From assembly GCA_946887085.1 (NCBI GenBank), contig CAMPKG010000096.1, forward strand, positions 1-10,367: DNA of 10,367 nucleotides. The letters run 5' to 3'. The position numbers and the translations under genes are program-made. A model generated the notes under the pieces. It ran no database searches and was not told where the DNA came from. It saw only the letters and a program-made list of their open reading frames with translations. Origin of the DNA: an uncultured Sphingobacteriales bacterium (GTDB lineage: Bacteria; Bacteroidota; Bacteroidia; Chitinophagales; Chitinophagaceae). Shown here piece after piece: positions 1 to 10,367 of this stretch (positions within the stretch are counted from its first letter, which is position 1; every line of letters begins with the position of its first letter).

Positions 1-1507
1 ATCCCGTAGCGGTCGAAGCTGTTTGCACGGGAAGTGTCCCCCAGACATAAGTATACGGCGATGTTCCGCCTGCTGGCGAAGCAGTAGCACTACCGTTTGT
101 CGCCCCGTTACAACTAGCATCCGTTTTCGACATGGTGGTGGTCAGCACCGCAGGCTGGCTAATAACCACAGACGCCGAAGTAATGCAATTTTGGGCATCA
201 GTGACTGTAACCGTATAAGTACCCGCCGGCAACCCGGTAGCGACGGCCGTTGTTTGAACCGGGCTGGTATTCCAGCTGTAGCTATGTGGCGATACACCAC
301 CGGTTGACAACACGGTGGCTACGCCATTAGTGCCGTTGAAGCAGCTTACATCGGTTTTATTACCAGTTGCGCTCAACTGGCCCGGTTGTCCTACCACCGC
401 AGTGGCTGTTGTGGAACATCCGTTGCCGTCAGTAATGGTGACCGTATAGGAACCGCTGGATAAACCCGTAGCTGTAATGCCCGTTTGAACGGGAGTGGTG
501 TTCCAGCTATAGCTGTATGGATTAGTACCGCCGGCCGGCACTGCAGTCGCAGTTCCGTTATTACCGTTGTTACATGAAGCATCAGTTTTTGTTGCGGTCG
601 CTGTAAGCTGCGTTGGCTGCGTGATAAGGGCGTTGGCGCTGGCTGTACAGTTATTCGAATCTGTAACAGTGACTGTGTATGTGCCTGCCGGCAAACCGCT
701 GGCCGTAATTGTAGTTTGAATAGGCAAACTATTCCAGCTGTATATATATGGCGTGCTACCGCCGGCAGGTACTGCAGTTGCTGTTCCCGTATTTGTATTG
801 TAACAAGTAACGTTCGATTTGGTAGTGGCTACAGCAAGTTGCGTCGGCTGGGTTATAATCGCCGTATCCTTCGCCGTACAACCGTTTGAATCGGTTAGCG
901 TAATAATGTATGTACCAGCGGTTAGCCCCGTTGCTATAGCAGTAGTTTTTACCGGCGTGGTATTCCAGCTGAAAGAATGGGGCAAAACGCCGCCGCCAGC
1001 AGTGGCTGTCGCGGTGCCGTTATTCCCATTATAACAACTCACATTAGTCCGGTTTGCAGACACCGTGAGTTGTGTGGGCTGTGTGATGACGACAATAGCA
1101 GTGTCTATACAGTTCTTAAAGTCTGTAATGGTAACGGTGTAAGTTCCCGCAGAAAGCCCGGTAACGGCGGCCGTGGTCTTAACCGGCGAGGTGTTCCAGC
1201 TATAAGTATATGGCGCCGTTCCACCCGTCACAGACACATTAGCCGTACCATTAGTACCATTATAACAACTGACATTGGTTTTTGTTGCGTTGGCATTCAA
1301 CAATGGTGGCTGTTTGATAGTATCCGTTTTTGTTCTGATGCAACCTATACTATCTGTTACTGTAACTGTATAAATGCCTGCAGCTAAATTCGATGCTGCT
1401 GCTGTGGTTTGAACTGGTGAGCTATTCCAGCTATAACTATACGGAGTTTTACCACCTGTAACGGATGCAGTCATGCTTCCTGTGGCGATGCCATAGCACG
1501 CAATGTC
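1..1507 (-). repeat. Seven tandem 231-bp (77-residue) SprB-like coding repeats
   Basis: On the + strand the 8-mer TTCCAGCT, the complement of the Ser-Trp-Asn codons, starts at 270, 501, 732, 963, 1194 and 1425. Every interval is exactly 231 bases. A seventh, diverged copy (CCCCAGAC, Val-Trp-Gly) starts at 39, again 231 away. Taking the Asn/Asp before the Cys motif as the boundary, units lie at 1507-1277, 1276-1046, 1045-815, 814-584, 583-353, 352-122 and 121-1 (partial). The copies are alike in protein but differ at many synonymous positions, so this is an aged, protein-level array. It probably continues beyond the left edge. Each unit begins with a Cys motif (SCYN or SCNN) and has a second Cys near its end (NGCT, NNCT, NCI), which could form a disulphide within each repeat. 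Confidence 0.95.
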
Positions 1508-2668
1508 TTGTTTGGTAAGACTCACCACGGGATCGCTTACATACACGTTGACCGTGTCTCTCCGGAAACAACCGCGTGGGTTGGTCACCAGGAGATGATA
1601 GGTTGTATTCGTCGTAGGTGTTGCAATCGGGTTGGCACAGTTGGTACAACTGAGGCCTGTAGCAGGTGTCCAGCTATAGGTAAGTGGCAAAGTATCTGAT
1701 GTTGCATTCGAAGCAAGAGGCAGGCTTACCCCACGGCAAATGGTTGTATCCTTTGTCGCATTTAGCGCCACGTTGGAAACGGTAACAGTGGTGAACAAAG
1801 TATCAGGACACCCAAAACCTGTATATGGCGTAAGAATCACTCCATACTTTGTGGTCGTTGACGGTGTAGGTATTGTTATGGACTGCCCCGTACCCTTCGA
1901 GGTGGTGAGGGTAGAATCATACCATTGATAGGTGGCAAACCCCGGCGGTGCACTCAAACTTGTTGTTGGCGATGAGGAGCAGGCAACAGAATTTATTTTG
2001 AACAGGCCGCACTCAAGGTCTACATAACCATAGCCGAAATGCGCACCGAGATCGCAGTCGCCGCTGGCAAAATCCAGTGCTACGGTTTTTCCCCCGTAAT
2101 TCGACAAATTGATACTTGCAGTTGTCCATGATTTATACCAAACGTTTGTGCTGCCATACCGCTGAAACCCTGGAAGATTGGAAGATGCAACGAAGGAGAA
2201 CTGGCTGCACGGTATGATCGCGTTTGTCGCCGAATCGTAGGCCTTTACTTCAAAGCGTGGCTGATCCGCAGCGTTATGTCCCGGATCCTGGAACACGACT
2301 GCATAGCGAAAGATAATGCTGTAGTTATTAAGGCCGGCGGGAATCTTCGCATAATATCTTGCACGCTCTGCCTGCCTTCCCATTGAATCATTACCCAAAC
2401 GTAAAGAGTATTGCCCGTTTGGCGCAACGATCGGGAAATTTCCATAAGGATCGGTAGCAGTACCACTTGTAAGCGTATGGCGATTAGTAAGCGGAGCTGT
2501 TTGTGTATTTGCAGTTATTGCGCAGCACGTGCCGGTATAAAACAACCAATGGCCAAGATTACCATGTTCAAAGTCCACATTCGGCGGACATGGAATGGTC
2601 TGGCTCCTTGATGAATTGGCAATAAGCAGGCAATAAAATAGAAACAGAGTATATTTTAGTCCCCTCAT
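1..2668 (-). CDS. Giant secreted/surface protein with SprB-type repeats (3' end outside window)
   Basis: The frame is open from ATG at 2668-2666 to the window edge: 889 codons with no stop, so the C-terminus is missing. Residues 1-23 look like a signal peptide (basic start, hydrophobic YTLFLFYCLLIA, then SSRSQ). Residues about 24-220 form a beta-rich, jelly-roll-like domain (starts PCPPNVDFEHG, ends GYVDLECG) of the kind found at the N-terminus of Bacteroidota adhesins. Residues about 222-300 and 300-378 are Ig/PKD-like; the second carries the familiar YSWTPATGLSCTNC stretch. From about residue 388 there are seven 77-residue repeats with the SprB-repeat pattern (SCYNG, GG-PYSYSWN, GTYTVTVTD). 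SprB of Flavobacterium is a mobile cell-surface gliding adhesin exported by T9SS. Similar repeats also occur in non-gliding surface proteins, so a role in adhesion is inferred, and the T9SS C-terminal signal cannot be seen. No Shine-Dalgarno is evident; the leader is A/T-rich. Very sure of the gene and repeat family, unsure of function. Confidence 0.93.
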   Translation of the reverse strand, partial: MRGLKYTLFLFYCLLIANSSRSQTIPCPPNVDFEHGNLGHWLFYTGTCCAITANTQTAPLTNRHTLTSGTATDPYGNFPIVAPNGQYSLRLGNDSMGRQAERARYYAKIPAGLNNYSIIFRYAVVFQDPGHNAADQPRFEVKAYDSATNAIIPCSQFSFVASSNLPGFQRYGSTNVWYKSWTTASINLSNYGGKTVALDFASGDCDLGAHFGYGYVDLECGLFKINSVACSSSPTTSLSAPPGFATYQWYDSTLTTSKGTGQSITIPTPSTTTKYGVILTPYTGFGCPDTLFTTVTVSNVALNATKDTTICRGVSLPLASNATSDTLPLTYSWTPATGLSCTNCANPIATPTTNTTYHLLVTNPRGCFRRDTVNVYVSDPVVSLTKQDIACYGIATGSMTASVTGGKTPYSYSWNSSPVQTTAAASNLAAGIYTVTVTDSIGCIRTKTDTIKQPPLLNANATKTNVSCYNGTNGTANVSVTGGTAPYTYSWNTSPVKTTAAVTGLSAGTYTVTITDFKNCIDTAIVVITQPTQLTVSANRTNVSCYNGNNGTATATAGGGVLPHSFSWNTTPVKTTAIATGLTAGTYIITLTDSNGCTAKDTAIITQPTQLAVATTKSNVTCYNTNTGTATAVPAGGSTPYIYSWNSLPIQTTITASGLPAGTYTVTVTDSNNCTASANALITQPTQLTATATKTDASCNNGNNGTATAVPAGGTNPYSYSWNTTPVQTGITATGLSSGSYTVTITDGNGCSTTATAVVGQPGQLSATGNKTDVSCFNGTNGVATVLSTGGVSPHSYSWNTSPVQTTAVATGLPAGTYTVTVTDAQNCITSASVVISQPAVLTTTMSKTDASCNGATNGSATASPAGGTSPYTYVWGTLPVQTASTATG

Positions 2669-2961
2669 ACTCTTAAATTTTTTAACAAGAGATACCTGCT
2701 AAAAAATAAAAACCCCGTCAGCTCTTATTCTTCCAAAAGTTTATCTCTCCTCTGTAATATGATGATCCCTTATTACCCCTAAAATTATGAACTTATTTAT
2801 CAATCTCAAATAGTTATGCTTAAGCATTCAACAAAAAATCCATAACAAACATATCATATAGCTAAAGGCATAATTCTTATTAGATCAAAAATCAATACAG
2901 CGGTTCATTATCTTTGGAAGTACTAAATGGGATCTCAAATCATTTAAGCAGGATTTTTTAT
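2669..2961. promoter_or_regulatory. AT-rich divergent intergenic region
   Basis: These 293 bases separate the starts of the repeat protein (minus) and the TPR-barrel gene (plus), so they must hold both promoters. The stretch is clearly richer in A and T than the genes on either side. I see no tRNA-like fold, no convincing coding frame and no strong hairpin with a T-tract. One good plus-strand -7 box lies at 2909-2916. On the minus strand the only full TAnnTTTG match is TATGTTTG at 2853-2846, which would imply an approximately 170-base leader for the repeat-protein gene. That assignment is weak. Confidence 0.6.
2909..2916 (+). promoter_or_regulatory. Candidate Bacteroidota -7 promoter box TATCTTTG
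   Basis: TATCTTTG matches the Bacteroidota sigma-ABfr -7 consensus TAnnTTTG at all fixed positions. It lies 45 bases before the ATG at 2962, giving a leader of roughly 40 bases. I see no clear TTTG element at the -33 position, so the match rests on the -7 box alone. The identical octamer precedes the response-regulator gene. Confidence 0.45.
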
Positions 2962-4239
2962 ATGCGTTTTTTTAACGGGGTAAAAATAAGCACCGCAGTT
3001 CTCAGTATTATTCTATTTTCCAACCGACCGGCATTTTCACAGGATATAGAAGTAATAAAAGACCCCGACAGTCTCTATTCACTTGCGCGTACGGCCGCTT
3101 TCGGGGAAAAGAATTACGACAAAGCAATAATGTATGCCCAACGGGGATTACAACTTTCGCCCAACTATATCGACCTCGTTGTGTTCATGGGCAGCCTCTA
3201 TACCTGGAAAAAAGATACCGACAGCGCCAGGTATTTTTTTGAAAAAGCCATCTCCCGGAAACCGGAATACGTGAATACCTATTCCGCTTATTCCGATATG
3301 GAATTCTGGAGTGACAGAGACTCAGCTTCTTTGCTGGTACTTGACCGCGGATTAAAATATCACCCGTCGTCTGTTGCCTTGTTGAGCAGGAAGGCCCGCG
3401 TGCTCGAGGAACTGCGTGATTATAGGGCAGCGGCGTATTACGCTGACTCTGCATTGAGAATAGACAGGCGAGATGCTGATGCTCTCGGAGTAAGGCGTAG
3501 AATACAGGATTATATATCGGGAAATCGCATCGGGTTGAAATACGACTATGTATACTTTGACAAGCAGTTCAACGACCCCTGGCAACTTCTTGCGATCGAT
3601 TATACCAGGCAGACGTCGGTAGGTTCTGTAACAGGCCGAATCAATTACGCGAACCGTTTTGCCAACAACGGTTTACAATTTGAGGTCGACGCATATCCCC
3701 GCATCTCGAAAACCTTTTATGCCTATGTCAATGCAGGCTATGCACATAACCTTGATACCTCTGATGTATTTCCGAAATGGAGGACAGGGCTGTCTCTATT
3801 CGCCAACCTGCCTTCCGGCTTCGAAGCAGAAGCGGGAGTACGTTATCTATACTTTTCAAGCGGGACCGATTTTTACACTGCTTATCTTGGTAAGTATATC
3901 GGAAACTTTCTTTTGGGCGCAAGGACATTTTTGACACCTGCTGCAAACAAATCATCACATTCCTATAACGTCACTGCACGTTATTATTTCGGAGCCATAG
4001 ATGATTATATAAACCTGCTGCTCGGATACGGTATATCTCCTGATGACCGCGCCGTTGCCCCTCAGCTAACTGTTGCGAATTTGAAAACGTATAAAGCTGA
4101 AGCGATCTTCCGAAAATCGGTCAAGCGACTTAATATTTTTACAGCGAATGCCTCCATTGCAAACCAGGAATTTATCCAGGGGACACTCAAAACAGGCAAC
4201 CAGTTCCAGTTCGGTCTCGGTTATATCCGTCGGTTCTAG
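2962..4239 (+). CDS. YaiO-family outer-membrane beta-barrel protein with N-terminal TPRs
   Basis: A 425-residue envelope protein. Residues 1-27 are a signal peptide (basic start, hydrophobic TAVLSIILFS, ending PAFSQ). Residues about 35-185 are helical TPR-like repeats, for example around 51-67 (NYDKAIMYAQRGLQLSP) and 86-101. Residues about 186-425 alternate polar and hydrophobic positions with many aromatic residues, as in a beta-barrel, and end in Phe (GLGYIRRF) as many outer-membrane proteins do. Together this fits the YaiO-type OMP domain. TPR followed by a barrel is also the plan of PgaA, the PNAG exporter, so a role in passing a polysaccharide across the outer membrane is plausible but inferred. 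The start at ATG 2962 was chosen because it begins the signal peptide, has AGGA at 2950-2953 eight bases upstream, and lies downstream of the TATCTTTG box. The gene converges on the glycosyltransferase with a single base between stops. Confidence 0.85.
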   Translation: MRFFNGVKISTAVLSIILFSNRPAFSQDIEVIKDPDSLYSLARTAAFGEKNYDKAIMYAQRGLQLSPNYIDLVVFMGSLYTWKKDTDSARYFFEKAISRKPEYVNTYSAYSDMEFWSDRDSASLLVLDRGLKYHPSSVALLSRKARVLEELRDYRAAAYYADSALRIDRRDADALGVRRRIQDYISGNRIGLKYDYVYFDKQFNDPWQLLAIDYTRQTSVGSVTGRINYANRFANNGLQFEVDAYPRISKTFYAYVNAGYAHNLDTSDVFPKWRTGLSLFANLPSGFEAEAGVRYLYFSSGTDFYTAYLGKYIGNFLLGARTFLTPAANKSSHSYNVTARYYFGAIDDYINLLLGYGISPDDRAVAPQLTVANLKTYKAEAIFRKSVKRLNIFTANASIANQEFIQGTLKTGNQFQFGLGYIRRF

Positions 4240-4240
4240 T

Positions 4241-5674
4241 TTATTTCTTTGCTGCCGCAGTCGGTGTGCCAAATCCGGTGCGTGTCATTTCGCCCCAGCT
4301 TTTCTTTTTCCTAATAAGGTCAACATATCCTTTAATAGCTGCCCATACGCCGAAGGGATGGAAATAAAAAGGTTCAGTGAGCGCGGTTAGCAACAGCTTC
4401 ATCATATCGGTACGGCGACGGTATTGGTTATAGGTTACTACCTCTATCAGTGCGGAAAATGCTGAATACATGTAACCAAAGCTGATGATAAACACCATGA
4501 AGGCCACGAACAGCTGCCAGTCAATGATCTGCAGGTACACCATGATCAAAAAGGCAAACATCCCAAAAAACTCGATCAGGGGAGCCACCATCTCGAAGAA
4601 GAACCAGTAAGGATAGCTCAGCATTCCCAGCAGCCCGTACTTTGGGTTGAAGAACATTTTCTTGTGGAGCTTCAGGGTCTCGATCGTACCGCGCATCCAG
4701 CGGTTGCGCTGACGGCCAAGTATCTTTTTCGACTCGGGAGCTTCGGTCCAGCAGAGCGGGTCCGGAATATAGGCGACCCGGTAAGGTATCTTCGCCTCCT
4801 CCATATAACGGCGCATGCGCACCACCAGCTCCATATCCTCTCCTACCGTGTTGTGATCATACCCACCACATTTCACCGCGATATCTTTTGCAAATGCACC
4901 AAACGCGCCTGAGATCAGCAGCAGTCCGTTCATACGCGCCCATGCCATACGCCCCAGCAGGAATGCGCGTATATACTCCAGCGACTGCATGCGAGCATAA
5001 TAATTCTTCGGCAAGTTCACTTTCAGCAGGCGACCATCCTGTATCACACAAGAGTTGGCAACGCGCACCACTCCACCAGTGGCTATCACTTTTTCCTTAG
5101 TCTCCTCGAGGAACGGCTTGATCATTTTCATCACCGAATCCTGCTCAAGGATACAATCCACGTCGATGCACACGATGATATCATGACTGGAAATGTTGAT
5201 GCCTACGTTCAGCGCATCGGCTTTGCCGCCGTTCACCTTATCTACAACCACAAGTTTTTTGTAAACGGGGTTTTTACTTTTATAAACACCGCGAACCTCT
5301 TTTGTTTTTATCTGGTACCGAACAAAAAAATCGATCTTCTCCAGCTGGTATGCATCAATCAGCTTCTGAATACTGTCATCTTTACTGCCGTCGTTAATGA
5401 TGACTACCTCAAGGTGATTATAGTATATGGACAAGAGCGAGCGGACGTTCTCAATAATGGTTGCGCCCTCGTTATATGCCGGCGCAAGAATGCTGACCGA
5501 TGGGTCGTGTGGTGAAGACACCAGCAGCCGATAGTCTGTAAACTCATTGCTGCGTATATATTTTTTTGTCTCGCCAATGGAGTATAACCCAATGAATATA
5601 TAGGACAACAGCAATGCCGCTGAGTAAAAGAAGATGACATAGGTAAGCAGGTCTGTTGCTATTTGGTAGATCAT
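4241..5674 (-). CDS. Membrane family-2 glycosyltransferase, likely polysaccharide synthase
   Basis: A 477-residue inner-membrane enzyme expected to polymerise a sugar from a nucleotide-sugar donor on the cytoplasmic face. A transmembrane segment lies at about 10-33. The GT-A domain follows with PAYNEG (65-70), NDGSKDD (94-100, Asp95), NGGKADALN (148-156), the metal-binding DVD (Asp171, Asp173), the GED catalytic-base region (278-280) and QRNRW (322-326), the QxxRW motif of processive synthases such as PgaC, cellulose synthase and hyaluronan synthase. C-terminal membrane segments lie at about 347-412, with another hydrophobic stretch around 428-450. No PilZ domain is visible. The start ATG (5674-5672) overlaps the HEAT gene's TGA in ATGA, implying translational coupling. 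The donor sugar and the product cannot be read from the sequence. The motifs make the enzyme class secure; polymer synthesis is a strong inference. Confidence 0.92.
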   Translation of the reverse strand: MIYQIATDLLTYVIFFYSAALLLSYIFIGLYSIGETKKYIRSNEFTDYRLLVSSPHDPSVSILAPAYNEGATIIENVRSLLSIYYNHLEVVIINDGSKDDSIQKLIDAYQLEKIDFFVRYQIKTKEVRGVYKSKNPVYKKLVVVDKVNGGKADALNVGINISSHDIIVCIDVDCILEQDSVMKMIKPFLEETKEKVIATGGVVRVANSCVIQDGRLLKVNLPKNYYARMQSLEYIRAFLLGRMAWARMNGLLLISGAFGAFAKDIAVKCGGYDHNTVGEDMELVVRMRRYMEEAKIPYRVAYIPDPLCWTEAPESKKILGRQRNRWMRGTIETLKLHKKMFFNPKYGLLGMLSYPYWFFFEMVAPLIEFFGMFAFLIMVYLQIIDWQLFVAFMVFIISFGYMYSAFSALIEVVTYNQYRRRTDMMKLLLTALTEPFYFHPFGVWAAIKGYVDLIRKKKSWGEMTRTGFGTPTAAAKK

Positions 5675-6765
5675 CGTTTCAACTCCTGTTTAACATGGTT
5701 ATAAATATGCAGGTAGGGTTCGGGCTGCGTTTCAGCTTTCGCCAGGAGAATATCATATCCTCCCGTGCAGTTTCGTGCAATAGCCCGTGCAGCTTCCAGT
5801 TTCAGCAGGTCGTCACTATTATCGAGCTGCTGCATCAAAAATTCTGTTTCATTATCATCAGCTATACGGAACAATTGCTGCAATATGACGCGCTTGTTAG
5901 CAAATGTCTCCGAAGGGAAATGGTCAACAAGTATCTTCGAGGTAGATTCGTTGGCCAGCCTCGCGAAAGTCACTACGGCTTGCCGGCGTACGGCCTCATC
6001 TTCATGATCGAGACAATGCATGATATCGTCGTGTGCATGCAGCTGGTAAAATATCTCCGCCAGCCTCAGTGCAAACATCACCACGTATTTATTTTCAGAC
6101 CTCATCCAAACCGGGATCGAAACAATATCTTCGGGGTCTATTGCCTTCAACTGTTCCACGATCTTCAGTTGTTGCCAGTCTGTAAGCGGGTATGTTAATG
6201 TATCCAGGAACGTCAGCCCTGCAAACCCCTGGAAACTGATGACCGCCGTTTGCGCCTCTGTACGGATGATATCGTTGTTGCTGTTGGTATACCTGGATAT
6301 CTCTTCCTGCATATCGCGCTGGTCCATCATATACAATTCGTATATGCCTTTTCCGCGCCGGTACCAGGCTTTGTTGCCGAATTTTTCGAGTGTATCCTTG
6401 CGTAGCTCCAGTTTCTCGTAAAGGCGCGAGATATTGCCTGCAGCCTGGCCGGTAAGGTTTTTCCTAACAGAGATCAGCCGGTCGATCACAAACTGCCGGG
6501 TATCACGCTTTTCCAGTTCTTTGAGCAGGAAGGGTGAGATAGTTACTTCTGCGGCAATGTCTTCTTCCAGCAAAGCCTCGCTTATCCATTCATCTACCTC
6601 CTGTACTATCCTTTGTTTGGTAAAATGCCCTTTCTTTTTCTGGTACAGATATAGATAAATAAGCGCTACGATAATAACAGTGAGCGCACCGAACACGGCA
6701 GACACCATGTATAGTCGCTCTGCAGTAATAAAATCGAGGAATGAATCTCTTGTTGTAGTAAACAC
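5671..6765 (-). CDS. Membrane-anchored HEAT-repeat protein
   Basis: A 364-residue protein with one transmembrane helix at about 20-41, followed at once by YQKKK, which suggests the C-terminal bulk is cytoplasmic. Residues about 46-130 are helical and charged. From about 160 to 345 there are HEAT-like helical pairs, clearest at about 246-271 (HEDEAVRRQAVVTFARLA) and 307-332 (NSDDLLKLEAARAIA). HEAT arrays are protein-binding scaffolds and no catalytic motif is seen. The gene sits between a receiver protein (16-base gap) and a polysaccharide synthase (ATGA overlap), so a natural guess is an adaptor linking the receiver to the synthase at the inner membrane. That guess is inference. The start is uncertain: GTG at 6765 lengthens the N-terminus, while ATG at 6708 begins just before the membrane helix. 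Neither has a clear Shine-Dalgarno. Confidence 0.85.
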   Translation of the reverse strand: MFTTTRDSFLDFITAERLYMVSAVFGALTVIIVALIYLYLYQKKKGHFTKQRIVQEVDEWISEALLEEDIAAEVTISPFLLKELEKRDTRQFVIDRLISVRKNLTGQAAGNISRLYEKLELRKDTLEKFGNKAWYRRGKGIYELYMMDQRDMQEEISRYTNSNNDIIRTEAQTAVISFQGFAGLTFLDTLTYPLTDWQQLKIVEQLKAIDPEDIVSIPVWMRSENKYVVMFALRLAEIFYQLHAHDDIMHCLDHEDEAVRRQAVVTFARLANESTSKILVDHFPSETFANKRVILQQLFRIADDNETEFLMQQLDNSDDLLKLEAARAIARNCTGGYDILLAKAETQPEPYLHIYNHVKQELKR

Positions 6766-6781
6766 AATAATACGGGCTGAT

Positions 6782-7144
6782 CTACTTTTTCAATTGCCGC
6801 TTGATCCGGATGGTGAGCTCTGTAAGGCTGAACGGTTTGGTGATATAGTCGTCGGCGCCCAATTCAAAAGCCTCCTCTACAATGCTTTCCTGGCCCATGG
6901 TCGAAAACACGATCACGGGTATTTTCTTTTCCGTCATTGATTTGACTTTGCTTACTATCTCAAGGCCGCTGGCATATGGCATCATCATGTCGGTCAGCAC
7001 AAGATCGGGCATGGTCGCTTCGAGTTTTTCCAATGCATCTTTCCCGTCATTGCAACAGATCACCTCAAATCCCTCTTTTTTTAGCTTCAGTTCCACTGTT
7101 TTTTGTATCAGTGAGTCGTCCTCAGCTACAAGTATTTTTATCAT
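6782..7144 (-). CDS. Single-domain response regulator (CheY-like receiver)
   Basis: The 120-residue protein is one complete receiver domain with no output domain. The acidic pocket is Glu8-Asp9-Asp10, the phosphorylation site Asp52 (LVLTDMMMP), the switch residue Ser81 (VIVFST), the aromatic switch Tyr100 and the conserved Lys103-Pro104 (YITKPF). All key residues are present, so it should be phosphorylated by a histidine kinase, which is not encoded in this window. With no DNA-binding region it must act through protein contact; the HEAT protein 16 bases downstream is the obvious partner to consider. It starts at ATG 7144, 38 bases after the cytochrome gene's stop, with a TATCTTTG promoter-like box in that gap. 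It may therefore be transcribed both from its own promoter and by read-through. Confidence 0.95.
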   Translation of the reverse strand: MIKILVAEDDSLIQKTVELKLKKEGFEVICCNDGKDALEKLEATMPDLVLTDMMMPYASGLEIVSKVKSMTEKKIPVIVFSTMGQESIVEEAFELGADDYITKPFSLTELTIRIKRQLKK

Positions 7145-7182: not shown

Positions 7183-8193
7183 CTAAAAAATCACCGGGAG
7201 ATTGTTGGCCTTGTGATAATCGACAATAGGCTGATACGGGCCAAACTTATGCTGTTCAGCCGAAAAGCTATCGGCAAATGGTGGCTTGTGGTAGTCTATC
7301 GGTTTTTTTGTGACGTTGGGATAGCCCGGCGTGAACTGCGATTCGGGGCGTGAATGGATGCGGTCATCGTTTATAAAAGCAGCTACATCAATAGCTTCTG
7401 CATCGGTAAGCACGGGCCTGTTCCAGAAAGCGATATTATTCGGCATATTAGCTTTAATAAATCTTGCTGCCTTCAGCACGCGGTGCATGCTTGAACCCTT
7501 ATCATAAGAATCCGGCCCCCAAAGCGGCGGATATATATACCCCGATGAATCTGGTTTGAACTGCCCCTGGCCCTCTGCCCCATGGCAACGGCTGCAATGT
7601 TTGTTGTAAACGACGCGTCCGTTCTCAACACTGGCAGGCCGGTCTGGGTATTTCAATTCCATGGCCCCATCGCCGGGAACGTTTTCGCCGGTTGGTACGC
7701 CCTCGCTCAGCCATTTCATATAAGTGACCATGGCAACCATCTCCCTGCTGTCAAGTGGAATCGCCTTTCCGTGGTGCGGGCGTTCAATACAGTTGTTCAC
7801 ACGTTCAGCAAGTGTCAGAATCCTGTTTTCCCTGCCGCGGAACTGCGGATAGCGCGCATGGGTGCTGAAATAGTTCAGCCCGTATGGACGTGTCCCGCCA
7901 TCAAGGTGGCAGTTGCCGCAGTTCATTTTATTGCGAAGGTTCTGGCTCACAGTTCCCTCCGGCCCAATATAGTATGCCGTGTTCACGATGAGTTCCCTGC
8001 CATAGCGAATCATATCGCCGTATTCATTGTGCGGGATAGTAGATGTATCGGAAGGAGTGAAAAGGGAATCAGCGGATGCCTGCTTTTTTGTTTTTTTATC
8101 AGCTGGCTGGTTGCATGCGACAATCGCACATGTGATGCCAAGCAACAATAAAATCACTAGATTAGGCTTCTGTTTATTAACTATCAATTGCAT
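7183..8193 (-). CDS. Diheme cytochrome c lipoprotein, TsdA-like (thiosulfate dehydrogenase/tetrathionate reductase family)
   Basis: A 336-residue lipoprotein from ATG 8193: n-region with Lys, hydrophobic LVILLLLG, lipobox IVAC with Cys27. Two c-type heme sites are visible, C92-GN-C95-H96 and C200-SR-C203-H204. The surroundings match TsdA: CHLDGG after heme 1, YPQFRGRENR, ERVNNC135IERP, EMVAMVTYMKWLS, CHGAEGQGQ, PPLWGPDSYDKG and FIKANMP. Cys135 lies 43 residues after the first heme cysteine, where TsdA has its unusual Cys ligand to heme 1. Asn249-Met250 resembles the heme-2 ligand region I recall for Campylobacter TsdA. TsdA enzymes interconvert thiosulfate and tetrathionate in the periplasm; the direction cannot be told here. 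After about residue 285 there is a tail with two DYHK motifs (300-303, 325-328). No acidic surface-export motif follows Cys27, so periplasmic anchoring is likelier than surface display. Confidence 0.85.
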   Translation of the reverse strand: MQLIVNKQKPNLVILLLLGITCAIVACNQPADKKTKKQASADSLFTPSDTSTIPHNEYGDMIRYGRELIVNTAYYIGPEGTVSQNLRNKMNCGNCHLDGGTRPYGLNYFSTHARYPQFRGRENRILTLAERVNNCIERPHHGKAIPLDSREMVAMVTYMKWLSEGVPTGENVPGDGAMELKYPDRPASVENGRVVYNKHCSRCHGAEGQGQFKPDSSGYIYPPLWGPDSYDKGSSMHRVLKAARFIKANMPNNIAFWNRPVLTDAEAIDVAAFINDDRIHSRPESQFTPGYPNVTKKPIDYHKPPFADSFSAEQHKFGPYQPIVDYHKANNLPVIF

Positions 8194-8194
8194 G
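8191..8194. other. Shared CATG: two divergent genes start on the same palindrome
   Basis: The plus-strand sulfotransferase-like gene begins with ATG at 8192-8194, and the minus-strand cytochrome gene begins with ATG at 8193-8191. Both starts are supported by immediately following signal peptides. There is therefore no intergenic DNA, and each gene's promoter and leader must lie inside the other's 5' coding sequence. I found no full TAnnTTTG box within about 90 bases on either side. Confidence 0.75.
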
Positions 8195-9694
8195 TACAGG
8201 CTTATATCAGTTTTGGTCTCCACGTTGTTGACGATCTCTTCTTTTGCGCAAATCCTTCCTGCTGAAGGTGATACGCTAAATTACCGATTAATTGGCTTCT
8301 CTGTACCGGTGCAGGCAAAAACAGCGTTGTATAAGCTGGAGATTGCATCCGGCTATGTCAACAACCAATACAATTTTCAAAAAAATATTATCTATACAGC
8401 CAGCGCGAATGATAATAGGATCATCGCAACAGTACCGGAATTTGGCAGATCTTATACCTGGAGAATAAGTGAATACTCAAAAAAAGGAAAGTTAGCTTCA
8501 ACTACGCCATTCTACCATTTTATAACCGGCACCCATACTAACTCGGATACACGCAGGTATCCTATGAAGATCATAACGCCGGCAGACAGTTCACTCGCAC
8601 GCTTGCTGATCTTCCGCGATGCGACGCGCAACTTGTATGACCTGAGCGGAAATATATTATGGTATTTGCCTGAAATACCTGGAATAGTAGATACAGCAAC
8701 TAATATACGAGACTTAAAGACAACACCACGGGGAACTATTACATTTTTAACGCCAACCGCAGCTTGCGAAATTGACTATGATGGCAATATTCTATGGAAT
8801 GCGCCTGACGACGGAAGAGTAAGTGGTGACACGTCCGAATATTATCATCATGAATTCACAAGACTACCTAACGGCAATTATATGGTTGCGGGAATGGAAA
8901 ATGTATTTACAGGACTTAGCTCAAACAGGAAGCCCCCCCCGGTAAATGGCGGGATTAGGGCAAACAGCGATAGCGTCGCACCCGTTACAACGAAACACGG
9001 CACATTGATAGAATATGATCCGTCGGGGAAGATCGTATGGAGTTGGAAATCATCATCCATTTTTTCAATACCTGAACTTTTCGGCGACCGGGTAAATGGC
9101 GTTACCCACATGAATGCGTTTTACGTCAATGACAAAGATTCCACTATTTACATCAGCTTCAGGGACATCAGCCGCATAATCAAACTTAAGTATCCGCAAG
9201 CCAGGGTAGTTGCCGAATACGGCCAGTCTTTAAATGGAGAATCGAGAGCGGGAGACGGTATGTTCTACGGACAGCATTGCTGTCGTATTGGAAGCAGTGG
9301 CCAGCTGTTGTTGTTCAACAACAACGCCAGGTTTATAAAAGGAAGCCGGGCTTCCCGAAACCCGGTGGCTTCGATTGCAGGATTTAATGAAACTGACAGG
9401 GGCAGTTTAATCAAAGACTGGAAATTTGATTGCGATATCGACAGTTTTGCACGTTCATCCGCACCAACGGGGGGAAGCATTTACGAACTCTCCGACGACG
9501 TATACCTGGTTTCGATGGGTGGTACCAACCGCGATTTTATTGTCACTAAACAAGGCCAACTACTGTGGAACGCTGTTTTCCGCACCTGGGGCGATGCGGC
9601 CTGGCCCATCGTCAACTACAAAACAAGCCCTCTTGACGCTAACCACCTTCATATGTTGATTTTCAATCATTTGCTAGCTGTTAAAGAAAACTAA
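8192..9694 (+). CDS. Arylsulfotransferase (ASST)-family secreted protein
   Basis: A 500-residue protein. Residues 1-20 are a signal peptide (VLVSTLLTISSFAQ). About 25-112 is a fibronectin-like beta-sandwich (ends YTWRISEY and PFYHFITG). About 120-500 is a bladed propeller with repeated DxxGNILW-type turns (149-157, 195-202, 276-284, 453-459). Arylsulfate sulfotransferases move sulfate from a phenolic ester to another phenol in the periplasm through a histidine intermediate. Likely counterparts of the E. coli AssT active site are His219/His220 (YYHHEF), His306 (VTHMNAF), Arg324 (SFRDIS) and His362 (GQHCC). The His306-Arg324 spacing of 18 equals that between His356 and Arg374 of E. coli AssT as I recall them. 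Two cysteines directly follow His362, which is unusual. ATG 8192 was chosen because it starts the signal peptide; the frame stays open upstream to 8027 but only over antisense of the cytochrome gene. No T9SS C-terminal domain is seen. Confidence 0.82.
   Translation: MYRLISVLVSTLLTISSFAQILPAEGDTLNYRLIGFSVPVQAKTALYKLEIASGYVNNQYNFQKNIIYTASANDNRIIATVPEFGRSYTWRISEYSKKGKLASTTPFYHFITGTHTNSDTRRYPMKIITPADSSLARLLIFRDATRNLYDLSGNILWYLPEIPGIVDTATNIRDLKTTPRGTITFLTPTAACEIDYDGNILWNAPDDGRVSGDTSEYYHHEFTRLPNGNYMVAGMENVFTGLSSNRKPPPVNGGIRANSDSVAPVTTKHGTLIEYDPSGKIVWSWKSSSIFSIPELFGDRVNGVTHMNAFYVNDKDSTIYISFRDISRIIKLKYPQARVVAEYGQSLNGESRAGDGMFYGQHCCRIGSSGQLLLFNNNARFIKGSRASRNPVASIAGFNETDRGSLIKDWKFDCDIDSFARSSAPTGGSIYELSDDVYLVSMGGTNRDFIVTKQGQLLWNAVFRTWGDAAWPIVNYKTSPLDANHLHMLIFNHLLAVKEN
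8933..8940 (+). repeat. C8 homopolymer inside the ASST-like gene
   Basis: Eight consecutive C bases encode part of Lys-Pro-Pro-Pro (residues 247-250). Gain or loss of one C would frameshift the protein at about its midpoint, so the tract is a possible slippage or sequencing-error site. The reading frame is intact as given. Confidence 0.9.
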
Positions 9695-9766: not shown

Positions 9767-10367
9767 ATGAAAAAACTTCGACTCTATAGCTTTGCGCTAT
9801 TAGCATGCGCAACGTCTTTGCAAGCGTCAGCCCAATGTTCAACTAGTAGCACGCCTACTAACAACTGTGCATCCTACGGCGACATGATCAGTTCGTTTTC
9901 GTTGAACAGTATTTCAGCAACAGGAAACAGCGGTTGCGGCACCAACGGTTACAATTCATTCTCAAGCCCGGTTTGGAATTTGACGCTGGGTCAGTCTTAC
10001 AACTTTACCGTTGGTTTTGGCAACGGCGATCCCCAGGGCATTGCGATCTGGATAGATCTCAACGGCAACAACAACTACGACAATAGTGAAATGATATTCT
10101 CTACATCTTCGCCGAGCACAAGCGGCACAAGCGGAACGCTAGCCATTCCGTCGAGTGCCTCGGCAGGAAACGGCAGAAGAATGAGGGTCCGACTTGGGTA
10201 CTATATGTACACATGGTACGGCAGCGACGCATGTACAAACGGCATCGGCACCTGGGGCGAAACCGAAGATTACTATGTAAACCTGGTAGCGCCCTGCCCT
10301 TCACCGTCAATATCGGCCCAGCCGCAAAACCGCACGAGTTGTGAGCCCGGCAGTACTTCGTTCTCTG
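9767..10367 (+). CDS. Secreted GEVED-domain protein (3' end outside window)
   Basis: The frame is open from ATG 9767 to the right edge, showing 200 residues. Residues 1-23 form a signal peptide (basic start, SFALLACATSLQASAQ). Residues about 30-175 are a GEVED domain: a beta-sandwich with the acidic, probably Ca2+-binding loop WIDLNGNNNYDNSE (95-108, Asp97, Asn99, Asn101, Asp105, Glu108) and the terminal signature GETEDYYVNL (164-173). An Ig-like domain begins at about 180 (ISAQPQNRTSCEPGS). In Bacteroidota this domain is common in multi-domain secreted proteins carrying a T9SS sorting signal, often adhesins or enzymes. What the rest of this protein does cannot be seen. The 72 bases upstream (9695-9766) are A/T-rich, show no clear -7 box or terminator, and have no strong Shine-Dalgarno. 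The gene follows the sulfotransferase gene on the same strand and could be read with it. Confidence 0.88.
   Translation, partial: MKKLRLYSFALLACATSLQASAQCSTSSTPTNNCASYGDMISSFSLNSISATGNSGCGTNGYNSFSSPVWNLTLGQSYNFTVGFGNGDPQGIAIWIDLNGNNNYDNSEMIFSTSSPSTSGTSGTLAIPSSASAGNGRRMRVRLGYYMYTWYGSDACTNGIGTWGETEDYYVNLVAPCPSPSISAQPQNRTSCEPGSTSFS

Follow-up and report, generated by a model that had tools for sequence, protein, structure and literature searches.

A Bacteroidota gene set with a processive-type glycosyltransferase and a YaiO barrel: a candidate exopolysaccharide system, probably switched by a receiver and a HEAT-repeat protein

Do four adjacent genes of an uncultured Sphingobacteriales bacterium belong to one conserved machine for making and exporting a polysaccharide, and how would such a machine be switched? 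The genes lie on contig CAMPKG010000096.1, in a stretch of 10,367 nucleotides that is called the window here. They encode a stand-alone receiver (REC) protein, a membrane-anchored HEAT-repeat protein, a family 2 glycosyltransferase (GT2) and an outer-membrane β-barrel protein with tetratricopeptide repeats (TPR). The original prediction had joined them into an exopolysaccharide module; its four open reading frames (ORFs), their motifs and their coordinates were confirmed by the ORF list, profile matches and a motif check. The module is real and conserved, and no description of it was found in the literature searched. We consider it fairly probable that it is a synthase-dependent exopolysaccharide system with a YaiO-family exporter, widespread in Bacteroidota and probably switched by the receiver and the HEAT protein, not by cyclic di-GMP (c-di-GMP). 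To our knowledge, the matrix polysaccharides of Bacteroidota are mostly without an assigned synthase.

The gene set recurs well beyond the window. A profile of 30 HEAT proteins, searched against genome contigs, gave 46 loci, all with Bacteroidota titles except L027. The GT2 gene follows the HEAT gene in 44 of them, and the other two (L021 and L044) end before the GT2 position. A stand-alone receiver is found in 40 loci, just before the HEAT gene or on the side of YaiO and a companion gene, C4; the six loci without a receiver call (L021, L022, L028, L039, L044 and L046) end early. YaiO is present in 32 loci, with seven ending too early for it (L003, L021, L022, L032, L039, L044 and L046). These counts were made by hand, and the receiver of L008 is visible in one of two locus surveys.

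A second survey took the phylum of a Sediminibacterium genome as its source and covered 296 genomes. Of these, 70 have a member of the GT2 family and 69 have YaiO, all 69 being GT2-positive; G163 is the sole genome with GT2 and without YaiO. The two genes lie within 8 kb of each other in 64 of the 69 YaiO genomes and on different contigs in the other five. Eighty regions centered on YaiO or GT2 were fetched; genomes previously identified by their HEAT gene contributed three of these (G016, G018 and G019, the last also in the sample). In total, 73 regions contain 74 GT2 ORFs, representing 74 of the 78 GT2 places in the sample. Upstream of 71 of these ORFs lies a same-strand gene of at least 230 aa, and 70 of these genes match the HEAT family, using a profile iterated on the same genes (58 of 71 in round one, with profile A1 alone). 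Pfam HEAT_2 exceeds its cut-off in six of nine divergent upstream genes scanned.

At the genome level, 103 of the 296 genomes have a match to a HEAT profile of 25 rows at E 1e-10. At 78 bits, a limit set after viewing the score list (78.3 bits, then 75.1) and applied to a profile whose rows come partly from the same sample, 68 genomes match, of which 67 are GT2-positive; the remaining one is G026. The Fisher values, 2e-67 for YaiO versus GT2 and 1e-61 for HEAT versus GT2, ignore kinship. Twenty control regions of the same genomes, picked by the analyst at round coordinates, contain no GT2, HEAT, YaiO, LtaS-like or C4 gene and no stand-alone receiver. The gene grouping is not a matter of chance, and the co-occurrence of the four families in other genomes, on which the idea of a module depends, was found in both surveys. 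Gene set, motifs, gene order, co-inheritance and the predicted fold of GT2 can all be read from the sequences.

The window receiver matches PF00072 at 96.1 bits (cut-off 30.2), and no DNA-binding domain was found in it by a Pfam scan. Its phospho-acceptor D52 and its K103 are conserved throughout an alignment of 42 receivers, which includes one unrelated row from L038 and excludes the L008 receiver. The HEAT protein has a single hydrophobic stretch in a hydropathy scan. It reaches 25.3 bits on PF13646, just under the cut-off of 27.7; many of its relatives carry this domain in precomputed annotation or exceed its cut-off, and the family profile A1 matches HEAT and alphaRep structures at positions 245–346.

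At a limit of 60 bits, a stand-alone receiver is located within 5 kb of 53 of the 74 GT2 ORFs. Directly before the HEAT gene, a stand-alone REC ORF is found at 41 and a REC-bearing gene at 44 of the 74. With the receiver limit lowered to 40 bits and a GGDEF scan added, the 74 ORFs fall into 54 with a stand-alone receiver, seven with a GGDEF protein lacking REC, four with a REC-GGDEF-REC protein, one with GGDEF plus a receiver (a GGDEF-EAL protein) and eight with none of these. The final REC domains of the four REC-GGDEF-REC proteins score 105–111 bits on the receiver profile, compared with 79 for the next best fused REC and a median of 46 for the others. The GGDEF motif of these proteins is degenerate; it is kept in the other eight GGDEF proteins. 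In a GT2 tree of 80 rows, the REC-GGDEF-REC cases form one clade of four (100/100), and after midpoint rooting stand-alone receivers stand on both sides of the root.

GGDEF is present in 23 of the 70 GT2-positive genomes, versus 134 of the 226 GT2-negative ones, leaving 47 GT2-positive genomes without it. Among 23 close relatives of the window, one genome has GGDEF and none has PilZ; a Pfam scan of the window proteins detected neither PilZ nor other c-di-GMP parts. Hybrid-kinase-like or Hpt-like genes occur in 33 of the 46 HEAT loci, the kinase label being based on similarity with a single hybrid kinase from L042. These counts argue against a general input by c-di-GMP and would fit a phosphorelay. 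In G026, the HEAT gene (locus L148) is directly preceded by a gene for a protein matching both REC and GGDEF, and the 17 kb fetched there hold no GT2 or YaiO match.

By its domains and motifs, the window GT2 is a family 2 glycosyltransferase of the processive type. It scores 74.8 bits on PF13641 (cut-off 27) and 72.6 bits on PF00535 (cut-off 23.3), and its motif residues (DxD, GED and QxxRW; Table 1) are invariant or nearly so across 32 aligned rows. The predicted structure (pLDDT 79.3) matches hyaluronan synthases, PcManGT and BcsA. PgaC_IcaA is its best NCBIfam match, at 128.2 bits against a cut-off of 422.3.

The barrel protein belongs, by profile, to the YaiO family and not to PgaA, with 218.7 bits on PF19413 (cut-off 23.9) and 174.1 bits over the full TIGR04390 domain (cut-off 32). 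TPR models exceed their cut-offs as well. The PgaA plan first attributed to it is thus correct as an architecture of TPR plus barrel, not as a family. Its N-terminus shows a signal-like stretch by eye, where the hydropathy scan marks no segment. No function of YaiO was reported in the literature searched, and the near-perfect co-inheritance of the gene set gives it a concrete, testable role.

In the favored reading, GT2 would polymerize the sugar, and its own membrane helices would serve as the passage for the chain. In the periplasm, the chain would be taken over by the TPR portion of the YaiO protein, and the barrel would be its exit. A hybrid kinase/Hpt relay would phosphorylate the receiver, and the target of the receiver would be the HEAT solenoid, the cytoplasmic part of its membrane-anchored partner; this HEAT protein, encoded by a gene that overlaps the start of GT2, would then switch or hold the synthase. 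Polymerization, export, topology, the nature of the sugar and the signal from phospho-receiver through HEAT to GT2 are what we infer here. Tentatively, the proposal can be taken further: the module might represent a distinct, ancient class of Bacteroidota exopolysaccharide machines in which phosphotransfer replaces c-di-GMP, the synthase is gated by a membrane-anchored HEAT scaffold to which a single receiver binds, and YaiO is the dedicated exit. The REC-GGDEF-REC proteins, with their dead cyclase motif, might then be a side branch in which GGDEF serves just as a scaffold and the working input comes through the receiver. The gene set is a test case for the switching of a polysaccharide synthase without c-di-GMP.

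Several observations weigh against this reading. No local YaiO is seen in seven of the 39 assessable HEAT loci (L005, L033–L037 and L040), although the flank is present. The barrel gene is therefore mostly, and not always, found beside the synthase gene. Genome searches for five of these seven loci located YaiO elsewhere in four (G016, G018, G019 and G021) and nowhere in G017, and the regions fetched around the distant YaiO of G016 and G018 contain no GT2. Three GT2-positive genomes (G158, G205 and G253) have no HEAT match at 78 bits, and 21 of the 74 GT2 ORFs have no stand-alone receiver within 5 kb at 60 bits. Neither the window ORFs scanned nor L001, the nearest relative locus, include a kinase or Hpt gene. 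The YaiO barrel domain measures ~240 aa, against ~290 aa for the PgaA porin construct (residues 515–807), which bears on the width of the pore. For 12 of the 74 GT2 ORFs, a GGDEF protein is encoded no more than 5 kb away, in eight cases with an intact motif, and c-di-GMP may therefore act in some lineages. The absence of PilZ and GGDEF, initially noted for the window, extends to nearly all close relatives; that of GGDEF does not extend to the whole phylum sample.

The missing receivers suit an explanation in which the receiver and the HEAT protein act at another level, such as transcription, localization or the assembly of an envelope complex, or in which the receiver has its target elsewhere and the neighborhood reflects common regulation only. 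With HEAT genes before 70 of the 74 GT2 ORFs and receivers near fewer of them, the HEAT protein could be structural. This explanation, which we regard as unlikely though worth keeping in view, has to accommodate a receiver devoid of a DNA-binding domain, the REC-bearing gene directly before HEAT in 44 of the 74 cases and the same adjacency in G026 despite no nearby GT2.

It is rather improbable that GT2 makes a glycolipid, a surface-protein glycan or a teichoic-like polymer, with YaiO as an outer-membrane insertion or scaffold protein instead of a polymer pore. The full motif set of a processive synthase argues against it, as do the match to the hyaluronan synthase/BcsA fold over ~366–394 residues and the combination of TPR and barrel, which is the plan of polysaccharide exporters such as PgaA. 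A Pga- or Bcs-type system controlled by c-di-GMP, with the c-di-GMP parts elsewhere in the genome, is hardly credible, as far as the window and its relatives show: in some distant relatives, a GGDEF or GGDEF-EAL protein is indeed encoded close to the synthase, against which stand the PgaC_IcaA score of GT2, the near absence of GGDEF and absence of PilZ in close relatives, and the 47 GT2-positive genomes without GGDEF.

Returning to the exopolysaccharide reading, the polymer may be modified in some lineages. No modifying enzyme had been noticed in the window, and this holds for the window and its nearest relatives; among the HEAT loci, 33 of 43 assessable ones have an LtaS-like enzyme. In 26 of the 46 loci, GT2 is fused in one chain with a PF00884 LtaS-like domain (127.6 bits in L014); seven have a separate LtaS-like gene, ten show none, and three are too incomplete to judge. 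In the phylum sample, the domain is part of eight of the 74 GT2 ORFs and lies within 6 kb of 19 more. The fused form makes up one clade of 16 in a 32-row tree (97/93). The E and GRT of the active site are kept in 32 of 33 sequences and the GDH in 31 of 33, the remainder being gaps; we take the Glu, the Thr and the GDH to be active-site residues. VP1736 and LtaS2 are the nearest solved chains. Assignment to the LtaS or OpgB equivalog was rejected (best NCBIfam scores of 45.2 bits versus 970 and 36.9 versus 572). Within the branch of the window (G001–G005), only G001 has an LtaS-like match, a weak one of 75.6 bits, and this branch seems to lack the enzyme. In many relatives, the LtaS-like enzyme, whether part of the synthase chain or encoded nearby, would attach to the polymer a phospho-group of the phosphoglycerol or phosphoethanolamine-like kind. 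A phospho-substituent on the polymer is plausible for the relatives only, because it is they that have the enzyme.

In the window, the receiver, HEAT and GT2 genes run head to tail in that order, the last two overlapping (Table 1). The barrel gene, encoded on the other strand, converges on the GT2 gene, leaving one nucleotide between their stop codons; the four genes are therefore not one operon. Judged by GT2, the nearest locus fetched is L001, from a Flavipsychrobacter metagenome-assembled genome, with 86% identity to the window, and a protein search with the window GT2 gave Polluticoccus soli at 88%.

Table 1. Coordinates of the four genes and their main features in the window.
Feature	Position	Strand	Profile
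Stand-alone receiver (REC) protein, 120 aa	6782..7144	-	PF00072
Receiver phospho-acceptor Asp52 codon	6989..6991	-	
Membrane-anchored HEAT-repeat protein, 364 aa, GTG start	5671..6765	-	
HEAT protein, sole N-terminal hydrophobic segment, residues 15-43, then basic stretch	6637..6723	-	
ATGA overlap, HEAT stop codon and GT2 start codon	5671..5674	-	
Processive-type family 2 glycosyltransferase, 477 aa	4241..5674	-	PF13641 + PF00535
GT2 NDGSKDD motif	5375..5395	-	
GT2 DxD motif (IDVDC)	5153..5167	-	
GT2 GED motif (VGEDME)	4829..4846	-	
GT2 QxxRW motif (RQRNRW)	4697..4714	-	
TPR + YaiO-family outer-membrane β-barrel protein, 425 aa	2962..4239	+	PF19413, TIGR04390
YaiO barrel domain, residues 188-425	3523..4236	+	TIGR04390, match positions 1-230 of 230

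Around these genes, the window holds at 2–2698 (minus strand) the beginning of a very large surface protein, truncated by the window end. Seven SprB repeats (PF13573) were found in it, and it is presumably of the gliding/T9SS type. On the receiver side lie a SoxA/TsdA-like cytochrome c gene with two cytochrome domains (7183–8223, minus strand) and, divergent from it, an arylsulfotransferase-like gene (~8192–9694, plus strand). Of the 46 loci, L001 alone retains this pair next to the receiver. A GEVED-domain protein (9767–10366, plus strand) is truncated by the other window end.

Other observations concern the relatives. The companion C4 (~397 aa; e.g. L014:12661–13860; L012–L043) has an N-terminal transmembrane-like helix and a ThuA/GATase1-like predicted fold, with no Pfam match in the two copies scanned. 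It is present in 24 of the 46 HEAT loci, 18 of these with YaiO, and near eight of the 74 GT2 ORFs. The contig of L027, titled Beijerinckiaceae, carries the gene set with a GT2 that nests among Bacteroidota, and is probably mis-binned. In L038 (Niabella defluvii, CP079215), HEAT, GT2 and YaiO are each split into several frames, a pattern suggestive of sequencing error or decay. In the deep relatives L109, L110 and L101, the gene immediately before HEAT is of the nucleotide-sugar epimerase/dehydratase type; in L104 such a gene follows YaiO, and GlmS follows GT2. Relatives of a DUF4838 protein (~740 aa; Pfam was run on the L062 copy only) lie near GT2 in L062, L067, L076, L077, L083, L084 and L116, and are possibly polymer-acting enzymes.

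Among known systems, the yaiS-yaiP-yaiX-yaiO cluster of E. coli (b0364–b0358) likewise combines a GT2, named YaiP, with a nearby YaiO barrel (182.4 bits on TIGR04390). YaiP is 25% identical to the window GT2 over 300 columns. The cluster further includes a putative deacetylase and an acyltransferase; its YaiO is a barrel only, unlike the TPR-barrel protein of the window, and no receiver or HEAT gene is annotated in this stretch. No paper on its function was found in the literature searched. In E. coli K-12 (L047, 380069–384616), where this pairing of GT2 and YaiO stands outside Bacteroidota, yaiX is interrupted by IS2. Of the solved full-length structures that include a membrane part, the hyaluronan synthases of Chlorella virus (HAS) and Xenopus (HAS1) are among the nearest to the window GT2, at ~17% identity, a match of fold only. 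They are not known to work with an outer-membrane exporter.

The Pga system for PNAG (PgaC/PgaD, the TPR-porin PgaA and PgaB) similarly pairs a membrane GT2 synthase with a TPR and outer-membrane barrel in one protein. It differs in that the window barrel is of the YaiO family, the window GT2 is far under the PgaC cut-off, and a HEAT protein and a receiver stand in place of c-di-GMP, which controls PgaC/D. Membership in Pga was rejected on the PgaC/IcaA score and on the lack of a PgaB-like deacetylase among the eight main window ORFs in a Pfam scan.

The cellulose system Bcs has in common with the window the BcsA-like predicted fold of GT2. Membership was rejected, with no PilZ in the window proteins or the 23 close relatives, and BcsB and BcsC were not seen among the window proteins. 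BcsG is related to the alkaline phosphatase superfamily. Judging by entry titles, it is a phosphoethanolamine transferase that works with the synthase, comparable to the LtaS-like domain that shares a chain with GT2 in the relatives. The transferase of the relatives is PF00884/LtaS-like and, in the 26 fused loci, one chain with the synthase, whereas none lies beside the window GT2. With synthase and phosphotransferase fused, these relatives would have, in a single chain, the equivalent of the BcsA-BcsG pair.

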